This document shows positions 7,413-13,066 of a stretch of DNA of 64,000 bases, piece after piece. The stretch is taken from positions 1 through 64,000 of the forward strand of contig NZ_CAVK010000057.1 of the NCBI RefSeq assembly GCF_000382885.1, in the 5' to 3' direction. A program made the position numbers and the translations under genes. The stretch comes from Sphingobium indicum BiD32 (GTDB taxonomy: Bacteria; Pseudomonadota; Alphaproteobacteria; Sphingomonadales; Sphingomonadaceae). The notes beneath the pieces were generated by a model. It saw nothing but the letters and a program-made list of their open reading frames with translations. It ran no database searches and was not told where the DNA came from. Each line of letters begins with the position of its first letter. Position 1 is the stretch's first letter.

Positions 7413-9710
7413 CTAGCCCTGATCCCGCTCCCGCCCGCGCAACATGCCCGGCGCGACGAAGCCGATCGGATCGACCTGCATCGCCTTCTGCTTCAGCGTC
7501 GCCTGGATCTTTTCATATTCATGCTCCATTTCCGGCGTCACCGACGCGCGGGTTTCCTCCAGCGCCGCCTCAAAATGGGCCATCGTCACCTTGTCGACCG
7601 ACAGCGACTGGCGCAGCGCGAACAGGCCCGCCCGCCGCGCCAGATCCTCCAGATCCGCGCCGGTGAAGCGCTCCGTTCGCTGCGCCAGCGATGCCAGATC
7701 GACATCATCGGCCAGCGGCATCTTGCCGGTATGGATCGACAGGATGCGCTGACGCCCCGCCTGATCGGGCACCGGCACATAGATAAGCTCATCGAACCGT
7801 CCCGGCCGCAGCAGCGCAGGATCGATCAAAGTCGGCCGGTTGGTCGCGCCAATGACGACCACCGACTGCAACTCCTCCAGCCCGTCCATCTCGGCCAATA
7901 TGGTGTTCACCACCCGCTCGGTCACTTGCGGTTCGCCCATACCGTTGCCGCGCGCGGGAACCAGACTGTCCAGTTCGTCGATGAAGATGACCGTCGGCGC
8001 CACCTGCCGCGCGCGGGCGAACAGTCGGGCAATCTGCTGCTCGCTCTCGCCATACCATTTGGACAGCAGATCGCTCGATTTGGTGGCGATGAAATTGGCC
8101 TGCGCCTCTCGCGCGACCGCCTTGGCCAGCAATGTCTTGCCGGTGCCGGGCGGGCCATAGAGCAGGAAACCCTTGGCAGGCCGGATACCGATGCGGCGAA
8201 AGGCGTCGGGGTCCTTGAGCGGCAGCTCGACCCCTTCTTTCAGCCGCATCTGCGCCTCGTCCAGCCCGCCGATATCCGACCAACTGACATTGGGCGCCTG
8301 CACCATCACCTCGCGCATCGCCGACGGCTGGACCCGCTTGATCGCGGCCATGAAATCATCGCGCGTAACCGACAATTCCTCCAGCACGTCGGGCGGGATC
8401 GTGCCATCCTCCAGATTGAGCCGCGGCATGAAACGACGCACCGTCTCGATCGCCGCCTCGCGGGTGAGCGCGGCGAGGTCCGCGCCGACAAAGCCATAGG
8501 TCATGCGCGCCAGTTCAGACAGATCAACCGTATCGCCTAGCGGCATCCCCCGCGTATGGATGCCCAATATCTCGCGCCGCCCGCGCTCGTCGGGCACGCC
8601 CACCACGATCTCCCGGTCGAAGCGGCCGGGACGCCGCAGCGCCTCGTCAATCGCTTCGGGCCGGTTGGTGGCCGCAATAACGACCAGATTGGTGCGTGGC
8701 TCCAACCCGTCCATCAGCGTCAGCAGTTGCGCGACCAGCCGTTTTTCCGTCTCGCCGGTCACCTGCCCCCGCTTGGGCGCGATCGAATCAATCTCGTCGA
8801 TAAACAGGATCGATGGCGCAGCCTTGGCCGCCGCCTCGAATATCTCGCGCAACTGCTTTTCGGACTCGCCATAGGCAGACCCGACAATCTCCGGCCCGTT
8901 GATCAGGAAGAATTCGGCTTCCGATTCATTGGCGACCGCACGCGCCAGCCGGGTCTTGCCCGTCCCCGGCGGGCCATGGAGCAAGACGCCGCGCGGCGGA
9001 TCGACGCCTAGCCGCTGGAACAGTTCGGGATAGCGCAGCGGCAGCTCGACCATCTCGCGCAATTGGTCGATCGTGTCGGCCATGCCGCCGACATCGTCAT
9101 AGGTCACGTCGGCGCGACGGGCCTCCTTTGGCTCCTCATATTCAGGGCGCAGTTCGACCTCGGTCTCGGCGTCGATATGGACGATGCCCTTGGGCACGGT
9201 CGACACCACCACCAGCCGGATTTCCTGCAAGGCATAGGCTGGCGCGGCCAGCATCTGGCGCAACTGTGGCGGCATGTCGCCGGGTGGCACCTGCTGCTGC
9301 CCCGATGTCGCGACCACATCGCCGGCCGTCAACGGGCGTTGAAAGAAGACCCGCTTCAACGCTTCGGGATGGCCCTGAAGCCGCAGATTATTTTGTGCAG
9401 GTGCGAACACCACCCGCTGGGCAGCGCGCGAATCCAGTCTGTCGATATGCACGAAGTCGCCGGAGCCGACCCCGGCATTGGCGCGCTGCAACCCGTCCAG
9501 GCGCAGCACGTCCAGCCCTTCATCCTCCTTGTAGGGGCGCACCACCCGCGCGGCGGTCGATCGCTTGCCGACGATCTCGATGACATCGCCTTCGGTCAGG
9601 CTCAATTCCGCCATAACCGCCAATGGCAGCCGCGCCAGCCCGCGCCCCGCATCTTCGGGCCGCGCATTGGCGACCTGAATCCGGCGTCCCGTGCTGTCCT
9701 CTTGCGCCAT
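7413..9710 (-). CDS. CDC48/p97-type AAA+ ATPase
   Basis: The 765-residue protein has the complete CDC48 architecture: an N-terminal double-psi barrel substrate/cofactor domain (residues 1-190), then two AAA modules. The first has Walker A GPPGTGKT at 246-253, Walker B ILFIDEIDSI and a second-region-of-homology stretch ending RRPGRFDREI; the second has GPPGTGKTLLAKA, VIFIDELDSL and LRPGRFDELI. Both sensor and arginine-finger regions look intact, so both rings should hydrolyse ATP. CDC48 proteins unfold or extract proteins; in bacteria their partners are mostly unknown. The length matches archaeal VAT and bacterial homologues. It is transcribed alone and there is no proteasome gene nearby. Confidence 0.93.
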   Translation of the reverse strand: MAQEDSTGRRIQVANARPEDAGRGLARLPLAVMAELSLTEGDVIEIVGKRSTAARVVRPYKEDEGLDVLRLDGLQRANAGVGSGDFVHIDRLDSRAAQRVVFAPAQNNLRLQGHPEALKRVFFQRPLTAGDVVATSGQQQVPPGDMPPQLRQMLAAPAYALQEIRLVVVSTVPKGIVHIDAETEVELRPEYEEPKEARRADVTYDDVGGMADTIDQLREMVELPLRYPELFQRLGVDPPRGVLLHGPPGTGKTRLARAVANESEAEFFLINGPEIVGSAYGESEKQLREIFEAAAKAAPSILFIDEIDSIAPKRGQVTGETEKRLVAQLLTLMDGLEPRTNLVVIAATNRPEAIDEALRRPGRFDREIVVGVPDERGRREILGIHTRGMPLGDTVDLSELARMTYGFVGADLAALTREAAIETVRRFMPRLNLEDGTIPPDVLEELSVTRDDFMAAIKRVQPSAMREVMVQAPNVSWSDIGGLDEAQMRLKEGVELPLKDPDAFRRIGIRPAKGFLLYGPPGTGKTLLAKAVAREAQANFIATKSSDLLSKWYGESEQQIARLFARARQVAPTVIFIDELDSLVPARGNGMGEPQVTERVVNTILAEMDGLEELQSVVVIGATNRPTLIDPALLRPGRFDELIYVPVPDQAGRQRILSIHTGKMPLADDVDLASLAQRTERFTGADLEDLARRAGLFALRQSLSVDKVTMAHFEAALEETRASVTPEMEHEYEKIQATLKQKAMQVDPIGFVAPGMLRGRERDQG

Positions 9711-9795
9711 TATGCTGTCCTATCCTTGTCGCTTCCGTAACGAGATAGGAAACGCCGGAGCCAGAAAAAGGGGGCAAGTCCGAAACGATCTGCAC

Positions 9796-9880
9796 AAAAA
9801 AAGGGCCGACCCGAAGGCCAGCCCGAAAAGTTTTAGGAGAGGATGCCTGAAAGGCACCCCCTATGTGCAACGCGGCAGAA
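9796..9880 (-). ncRNA. Candidate small RNA with intrinsic terminator
   Basis: The 335-base gap between the AAA ATPase and the LysR gene holds a textbook minus-strand terminator: stem 9803-9811 with 9816-9824, TTCG loop as read on the minus strand, followed by seven T (plus-strand A at 9796-9802). No annotated gene is transcribed into it. Just upstream on the minus strand is a second hairpin (9841-9859, 8 pairs with one G-U) and a single-stranded pyrimidine/A-rich linker between them. This layout, hairpin-linker-terminator of roughly 75-85 nt, is typical of a small RNA. AATAAT near 9885 could be a -10, but no good -35 was found, so the 5' end given here is approximate. Confidence 0.5.
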
Positions 9881-10045
9881 ATTATTGCAAGTGCGAAAAG
9901 AAAAGAGGAGTTGCAGAAAATGCATCTTGCCATTTCGCAGATTTTACTGCTCAGTACGGTCAGGATGCTTGGGACCGGCTGGCACTGCGATCGACAAAAA
10001 GACATGACGCGACGCAGCGCACCGGCTTCGGATTAGTGATTATAG

Positions 10046-10924
10046 ATGCGCAGATTGCCGCCACTTACGGCCCTGGAGGCCTTTGTTCAGGTTGCGCGCC
10101 TTGGCTCGGTCAAGGCGGCGGCAGAGGAACTCGCGCTTTCGACCCCTGCGCTCAGTCGCCGTGTTCAGGCGCTCGAACGCTTCATCGGTCGCCCCCTGTT
10201 CGACCGCAAACATCAGGCACTGGAAATCAATGCCGAGGGGCAAAGGCTGCTCGACGATATCGCGCCTGCCCTCGATTCGCTCGCGCAGGCGCTGGAAAAT
10301 ATCCAGAGCGGCGGCAATCAACTGCGCTTGCGGCTGGCGGTGATGCCGCTGTTCGCGACCCAGCGGCTGTTCCCCCATCTGGGCGCGCTGCGGGCGCTGC
10401 ACCCGCAACTGCATATCGACATCGAAACCACACCCCATGCCGTCGCGCGGCTTGGCGAAGGGCTGGATGCCGCGATCGTGCTGGCCAAGGATATCGACGC
10501 GGCGCTCTATGCCCATGAGTTGGACCATGACGAAGTCTATGTCATCGGTGCCCGCTCTCTGCTCGAATCGCCCAATGCGCTGACTTCGCCGGGGGAACTG
10601 GCCCAGCATACCGTGCTGCTCCACCGCGACATGGCGCTGGCGTTCGACGCATGGAAGGAAGCGGTCGGCCTGCCCGACCTGCAACCGCTGGCGATCGACA
10701 ATTATGATTCGGGCCAGTTGATGCTGGAAGCCGCAGCCCAAGGGCTGGGCGTCGCCTTCATGCACGCCAGCCATTTCAAGGAAGCGGCCGATAACCGGCT
10801 GGCCCGCCTCTTCCCGATCCGCGTCGAAAGCCCCTATCGCTATTATTTCGTCTGCCGCCCGCGCGCGCTCCAGACCCGCGCCGTGCGCATCTTCCGCGAC
10901 TGGCTGGTCGCGGCCGATATTTGA
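10046..10924 (+). CDS. LysR-family transcriptional regulator (GcvA-like)
   Basis: The 292-residue protein starts with a winged helix-turn-helix (LPPLTALEAFVQVARLGSVK, then AAAEELALSTPALSRRVQAL, residues 5-45) followed by a type 2 periplasmic-binding-protein effector domain (about 90-290). The wording of the HTH and the ending with RIFRDWLVAA resemble the GcvA subgroup, which often regulates glycine cleavage, beta-lactamase or amino-acid genes. Its target is not evident: the divergent neighbour region holds only the candidate small RNA, and the gene downstream is a diguanylate cyclase. ATG at 10046; no clear Shine-Dalgarno. Confidence 0.92.
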   Translation: MRRLPPLTALEAFVQVARLGSVKAAAEELALSTPALSRRVQALERFIGRPLFDRKHQALEINAEGQRLLDDIAPALDSLAQALENIQSGGNQLRLRLAVMPLFATQRLFPHLGALRALHPQLHIDIETTPHAVARLGEGLDAAIVLAKDIDAALYAHELDHDEVYVIGARSLLESPNALTSPGELAQHTVLLHRDMALAFDAWKEAVGLPDLQPLAIDNYDSGQLMLEAAAQGLGVAFMHASHFKEAADNRLARLFPIRVESPYRYYFVCRPRALQTRAVRIFRDWLVAADI

Positions 10925-12881: not shown

Positions 12882-13066
12882 AGGCGATTCCTGTTAGGCG
12901 TGCCTGCGCGCGGGGGAAAGCGGCAAAATGCGAGACGGCAGATCAAGAGGATCGGTCATATCGACCAAAAGGATGATGATAAACGGCATGAACAGCGCTT
13001 CCGGTCGTCGCCTCTGGACGATAGAAGGCCATTCAAACAACGGTTTCGTTACGGAAAGGATGCCCA

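Follow-up and report, generated by a model that had tools for sequence, protein, structure and literature searches.

Small RNAs of the alpha-r8 family are held in Rfam as RF00519, under the name suhB and the description 'Makes More Granules Regulator RNA', and are also known as MmgR. In Sphingopyxis granuli TFA, SuhB is reported to be a 61-nt RNA that represses thnR translation in an Hfq-dependent manner, and PHB granules are reported to act positively on suhB transcription (PMC6563040). In Sinorhizobium meliloti, mmgR is reported to be repressed by PhaR (AniA), which bound a palindrome in the mmgR promoter in an EMSA and whose motif contains YGCRNYGCR (PMC12542648); activation of mmgR by NtrC has also been described. 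For SisA-D of Caulobacter crescentus, direct pairing before the start codon of one target is described, along with carbon-linked targets (PMC12559287). The same report describes the 10-mer UUUCCUCCCU as a core common to the alpha-r8 family, several alpha-r8 copies in many genera and, for most species, a copy adjoining an N-formylglutamate amidohydrolase gene. The literature cited also includes PMC7143759, PMC6201568 and PMC10370305.

The locus described here lies upstream of a LysR-type regulator gene (10046-10924, plus strand) in the window, i.e., the whole 64,000-nt stretch of DNA analysed. We put at about 85% the probability that an alpha-r8 (SuhB/MmgR) sRNA is encoded here that acts in trans and probably depends on Hfq; with it, seven copies were found in this Sphingobium-like genome. 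A covariance-model scan of the whole window matched RF00519 to minus-strand positions 9788-9862 with 53.4 bits (gathering score 41, E = 3.5e-8), and the next-best Rfam families at this place all fell under their own gathering scores. From the RF00519 match and the promoter register common to the other copies, a mature sRNA of about 62 nt is predicted on the minus strand at 9796-9857, and the register of the sibling copies would place its 5' end at about 9855-9857. In order, the predicted transcript has a short hairpin (GUGCC-UUUCA-GGCAU), an open anti-Shine-Dalgarno linker (CCUCUCCUAAAACUUUUC) and a terminator (GGGCUGGCC-UUCG-GGUCGGCCC, then seven U). On the minus strand of the window, the pairs of the 5' hairpin in the predicted fold, GCC-UUUCA-GGC, occupy 9845-9855; the 20-nt core GCCTTTCAGGCATCCTCTCC occupies 9836-9855, the linker with its predicted unpaired anti-Shine-Dalgarno sequence CCUCUCCU 9825-9844, and the intrinsic terminator 9796-9824. 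This is the architecture of RF00519 as seen in predicted folds: a 5' hairpin, a single-stranded anti-Shine-Dalgarno core and a Rho-independent terminator.

The initial annotation had proposed, on the minus strand, a small RNA made of hairpin, linker and terminator, and that proposal is now backed by the family match, by synteny, by dispersed paralogues with a promoter element of their own and by covariation in the terminator. The strong terminator it described is present: pattern, fold and covariation agree on a 9-bp stem at 9824-9803 (seven of the nine pairs G-C), a UUCG loop and seven T at 9802-9796. The pattern scan was weak when taken alone, as it returned three such sites where shuffles gave 1.7 +/- 1.2; the fold of the 75-nt RNA reached -35 kcal/mol (z = -3.8), which 0 of 200 shuffles equalled, and the covariance-model match is decisive. 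The second hairpin that had been placed just upstream is likewise there, at 9855-9845, and the linker, said to be unpaired and able to pair with ribosome-binding sites, is predicted to be open in the fold of the 62-nt transcript, a reading that the family match supports. An RNA starting a few nt earlier would, by the predicted fold, form a longer first hairpin in which the CCUCU part is hidden. The proposed extent, 9796-9890, held in part, the RNA covering about 9857-9796 and positions 9862-9890 being promoter.

Compensatory changes in the stems of relatives, whose absence had been named as a refuting result, were found for one of the two hairpins, the terminator. An alignment was made from 70 of 119 distinct extracted copies. 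In these 70 copies 95.9% of cells in the terminator helix were paired and two-sided change affected 7 of the 9 pairs, while the first hairpin showed no compensatory change, with 0 of 3 pairs two-sided. The covariation score of the whole structure was 0.385, against 0.218 +/- 0.010 in shuffles; it was reached by none of 500 shuffles and exceeded all slid versions of the structure, and the count of pairs with two-sided change was equalled by 29 of the 500. The first hairpin is nearly invariant within the branch, and the canonical copies do not line up with it in the alignment. When RNAalifold was given the same mixed alignment of 70 copies, it kept the terminator and did not choose the first hairpin, offering instead a 3-pair helix between AGG of the hairpin's 3' arm and CCU of the linker.

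SuhB of S. granuli TFA, to which the predicted RNA is likened by description, comes from the same order, bears the same Rfam name and is of similar size (61 nt, against about 62 predicted here). The family core, described as UUUCCUCCCU (PMC12559287), corresponds to CCUCUCCUAAAAC in the window copy. The literal 10-mer is thus absent from the window copy, which reads CAUCCUCUCCUAAAAC, and the RF00519 model accepts this copy despite its absence. No match to the N-formylglutamate amidohydrolase family was found beside the window copy, whose neighbours are the LysR gene and a CDC48-type ATPase gene, nor within about 1.5 kb on each side of the other six copies, where four ORFs had no Pfam match. Sequence comparison establishes that the RNA belongs to the family, that its terminator has undergone compensatory changes, that its place is conserved in the genus, that six siblings have an identical core and that promoter elements are shared; the sRNA itself is ordinary in kind, a new member of a described family.

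The window's own genome has at least seven RF00519 matches over the gathering score, the count being a lower bound with 150 of 265 first-look candidates scored; by comparison, mmgR is reported as single-copy in S. meliloti (PMC12559287), and the same sevenfold complement distinguishes this genome from the SuhB description in Sphingopyxis. Six own copies, the window copy included, have an identical core GCCTTTCAGGCATCCTCTCC, and the seventh (L007) reads GTCTCCTCCCTGAAC, close to the canonical form. Genomes of the genus carry 3 to 11 matches each (25 genomes, the present one included), and the order's other families 0 to 2 (16 genomes). Family-wide, under stricter filters, 225 of 249 genomes had a match at E 0.001 and 201 had one over the gathering score. 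Of 176 loci, 44 escaped the regular expression used, some having no RNA and others insertions in the linker (e.g., L041). Part of this expansion in copy number may already have been published, and why one genus has so many copies, mostly with one core under one promoter design, is open to test. The Caulobacter SisA-D RNAs are likewise several alpha-r8 siblings with a common anti-Shine-Dalgarno core (PMC12559287).

The AAA ATPase gene (7413-9710) adjoins the sRNA in many relatives and has CDC48_N and CDC48_2 domains. ATPases of the CDC48 type are usually regarded as archaeal or eukaryotic. This gene had been called divergent from the terminator, which is wrong: it lies on the minus strand, downstream of the sRNA and co-oriented with it, so that the terminator stands 5' of the gene and the ATPase start (9710) is about 85 nt downstream of the T-run. 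The arrangement brings in a different reading, in which both hairpins belong to the 5' leader of the ATPase mRNA and act in cis as an attenuator governing read-through. The LysR gene, divergent from the sRNA, served as synteny anchor, the sample being the best 80 of 124 LysR relatives, 51 of the 80 titled Sphingobium; the nearest in this sample is from S. xenophagum (98% identity). The core lies at most 700 nt upstream of LysR in 54 of the 80 loci. An ATPase signature is there as well in 45 of the 54, and such joint occurrence, like the short same-strand distance, would suit a leader. A leader is nevertheless very unlikely: the other six own copies adjoin differing genes, one of them (L002) having a convergent gene as its next downstream neighbour, derived copies keep their promoter element at a fixed distance, and the predicted fold gives the terminator form only. 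The place of the sRNA is conserved in and near the genus, since 54 of the 80 loci have the core and the 26 without it, Novosphingobium included, are all distant (LysR identity 68% or less).

The promoter of the sRNA, on the minus strand, contains two palindromes. Site 2, TTTCGCACTTGCAA (9885-9898), contains a -35-like TTGCAA, and site 1, an imperfect palindrome TGCATTTTCTGCAA, lies at 9911-9924; a -10-like CACATA at 9862-9867 is the commonest hexamer at its offset (37 of 113 copies). Promoter statistics were taken from these 113 distinct copies with the exact core. In 109 of them the distance from the end of site 2 (TTTCGCAYTTGCRA) to the core is exactly 29 nt, and in 105 site 1 (TTGCA-N5-TGCAA) stands 10 or 11 nt upstream of site 2. 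The hexamers resembling TTGCRA (-35) and CACATA or CATATA (-12) are 17 nt apart. The composite element gave 281 matches, both strands together, in 61 genomes of the genus, against 4 for the reversed control, and the core follows 243 of the 281; in the own genome it follows 6 of 6, and six of the seven own copies have both the core and the upstream element. Site 2 with the core was found in 146 of 249 family genomes and in 61 of 96 genera. The Caulobacter siblings sisA-D are reported to have no upstream motif in common (PMC12559287), in contrast to the two-palindrome element of the six siblings here. Among open-access papers, no report of a shared sphingomonad alpha-r8 promoter element was found.

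Site 2 matches also occur apart from the sRNA. Allowing one mismatch, site 2 matches the own genome at 11 places, 5 of which are not sRNA copies; those inspected had no common context. A composite GCAA-N-TTCGCANTTGC match recurs, with no sRNA core, in five genomes of the genus (L189-L193); the only two of these stretches with ORFs listed (L190 and L191) have the match in the stretch upstream of mdh.

One factor would read the two-palindrome element, which overlaps the -35. Two candidates for this reader were set aside. ScfR (PF09856, RamB/PccR-type), an idea that came from the two-box architecture described for RamB sites, was rejected as reader of sites 1 and 2 since site 2 with the core is present in genomes where PF09856 has no match: G048, G053, G072, G142 and G204, all listed as 99-100% complete. 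PhaR is not favoured as the site 2 reader, the PhaR-type sites of the phasin promoter having a 3-nt inner spacer (TGCACTGCA) and site 2 a 4-nt one. PhaR would fit, instead of site 2, a separate palindrome at -19.

That palindrome, CGCGTTGCA, fits YGCRNYGCR and overlaps the -10 (9866-9874, minus strand). It stands exactly at -19 in 52 of the 113 copies, the window copy included, where 12.7 would be expected under column independence; 61 copies have none there. Counted anywhere in the last 30 nt, such palindromes occur in 54 of the 113, against 0.58 +/- 0.80 (maximum 4) in shuffles. These counts are not independent, because 34 of the 113 copies are orthologues of the window locus; 25 of those 34 have the palindrome at -20 to -18. 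Taking all window-locus orthologues, 44 of 54 have it at -19, and in the own genome 2 of 6 derived copies do (the window copy and L006). For other genera, among the matches listed, own-genus rows and five rows that duplicated, fully or almost, a retained row from the same genus were removed; 24 of the 127 remaining copies have the palindrome at -19 and 27 have it anywhere between site 2 and the core, against 0.5 in shuffles.

A PhaR gene (PF07879) is present in 241 of 249 family genomes, and the own phasin promoter (L227, about 884-945 of the reverse complement) has two PhaR-type palindromes. Between these two stands TTGCAATCCGATTGCGA, similar to half-sites of the element in the sRNA promoters. 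Control of a subset of the copies by PhaR is likely, judging from the palindromes. The palindrome at -19 looks as if PhaR represses the window copy, as it is reported to repress mmgR in S. meliloti, where a palindrome of this type is likewise described for an RF00519 RNA; in this mechanism PhaR, as a PHB-responsive repressor, would act on those copies that have the palindrome on the -10, the window copy included. It can be tested whether PHB storage is linked to the sphingomonad siblings through PhaR.

As a trans-acting sRNA, the transcript would pair through its open CCUCUCC linker and the preceding GGCA with ribosome-binding sites and block translation. Linker pairing was computed for 316 predicted starts in 395 kb (8%) of the own genome. 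The mean was -11.8 kcal/mol, against -10.0 +/- 0.8 for shuffled linkers, and 82 starts paired at -14 kcal/mol or better, where shuffles averaged 42 and one reached 85. The excess of the linker's pairing with starts is thus only moderate, as any anti-Shine-Dalgarno sequence would give.

Pairing is at its most specific at acsA. At most one mismatch to the full 12-nt complement was found at 14 places in the 395 kb, against 3.0 +/- 3.7 for shuffled 12-mers. Five of the 14 are sibling sRNA genes; among the other nine, only acsA and one ORF of 61 codons have the match directly before a start codon. The acsA gene encodes acetate-CoA ligase (acetyl-CoA synthetase, TIGR02188), 3 kb from the sRNA, and its putative target site GGAAAGGATGCC (13053-13064, plus strand) ends two nt before the start codon (13067) and 11 of its 12 nt pair with GGCAUCCUCUCC. 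An acs start was located in 30 of the 80 syntenic loci. In these 30 the columns of the site are 77-97% conserved, against 40-93% for the same columns before LysR, and GGATGCC is exact in 20. Columns further upstream of acs are also 73-87% conserved, and the site in part is the ribosome-binding site, so its conservation is supportive and not specific. Within the 395 kb, acsA is the best candidate target found. The phaR mRNA was rejected as a target since its pairing is not conserved across the genomes examined: the own genome gives -19.2 kcal/mol, and among 19 others three (G236, G086 and G134) give -19 to -21; pairing is weaker in the remaining 16, Sphingobium G116, G184 and G006 among them.

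Complementarity bears as well on the idea that the RNA is a sponge or decoy, titrating other RNAs rather than repressing mRNAs, as CrfA does in Caulobacter. Such a circuit is known for the family there, but the family members in it are the RNAs that are sponged (PMC12559287), and the core of the window RNA is pyrimidine-rich like that of the family, whereas a sponge would have the G/A-rich complement. A search of the own genome for 18-nt complements with at most three mismatches returned the six sibling genes (antisense) and two further places, with 8 for the reversed control; in contrast to the CrfA circuit, no long complement of the core turned up in the own genome outside the siblings. We regard a sponge as highly improbable. 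An mRNA-repressing sRNA under the promoter described above would act as a riboregulator, adjusting carbon use to carbon and energy status, as is reported for SuhB of Sphingopyxis, MmgR of S. meliloti and SisA of Caulobacter.

The exact 20-nt core also occurs in 36 IMG/VR contigs (L278-L313), which form 25 groups by their flanking DNA; the reversed core occurs in none. A terminator-like hairpin follows the core in 27 of the 36, against 100 of 1440 random places. At the exact register of the chromosomal promoter, a sigma-70-like score of at least 7 of 12 was found in 15 of the 36 (12 of the 25 groups), against 0.56% at random, and registers shifted by 1 to 6 nt gave no peak in the 36 contigs. 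Of the 36 predicted folds of these putative viral RNAs, 25 leave TCCTCTCC fully open. Because 9 of the 36 contigs have no terminator by the rule used, 21 have no good promoter in the chromosomal register and in 23 the core overlaps a mechanical ORF of at least 70 codons, not every viral copy need be a gene. The Rfam gathering score catches one (L306) of 14 derived-type viral loci tested. Dispersal of this kind, over the chromosome, plasmids and viral contigs, might suggest a multi-copy DNA element, i.e., a mobile or intergenic repeat that resembles an sRNA by chance. That is scarcely credible, as the terminators and spacers have diverged between copies but not the core, promoter spacing or pairing, and the alpha-r8 family is reported to be experimentally established in other bacteria.

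Twenty proteins near the viral cores were scanned; 11 match PHROGs and 9 have no match. In one contig (L288) terminase and portal genes flank the core, with a tRNA gene between, and elsewhere a portal (L302), a terminase (L308), a head protein (L298) or a primase (L278, L300 and L311) is near it. The canonical alpha-r8 core is found in a further 20 viral contigs (L317-L336), the reversed pattern in none. A terminator-like hairpin follows in 18 of these 20, against 65 of 800 random places, and 13 of 14 tested match RF00519. Ten proteins beside the canonical copies comprise four integrases (L324, L325, L326 and L330), a terminase (L323), an exonuclease and four without a match; because integrases adjoin them, some canonical copies may be host flanks or attachment sites. 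Among the named phages of INPHARED there was no exact 20-nt match and 13 weak ones (E of 2 or more), and no report of phage-borne alpha-r8 copies was found in open-access papers. The viral copies, if expressed, would amount to viral versions, with an identical seed, of a host regulatory RNA in Alphaproteobacteria.

Plasmids likewise have copies: the window stretch has matches in 67 plasmid records, of which 33 are typed conjugative and none matches over 80% of the stretch. In three plasmid copies examined the core is intact, and site 2 is clear in two. On balance, and by a small preference, we favour the view that sphingomonad phages and plasmids carry the exact targeting core, two of three plasmid copies with a host-type promoter element and many viral copies with a sigma-70-like promoter and terminators of their own, which would let an infection impose a host carbon-and-envelope riboregulator at will; the chromosomal siblings would be co-regulated by one factor, with PHB status acting through PhaR on a subset. 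The features that deserve further work are the acsA site, the PhaR-type palindrome, the design of the promoter and, most of all, the viral copies. One own-genome copy (L005) lies 3' of an ssb gene, and the copy on plasmid pNL1 (L314 4046) is likewise beside ssb, with a MucR-type regulator gene following.
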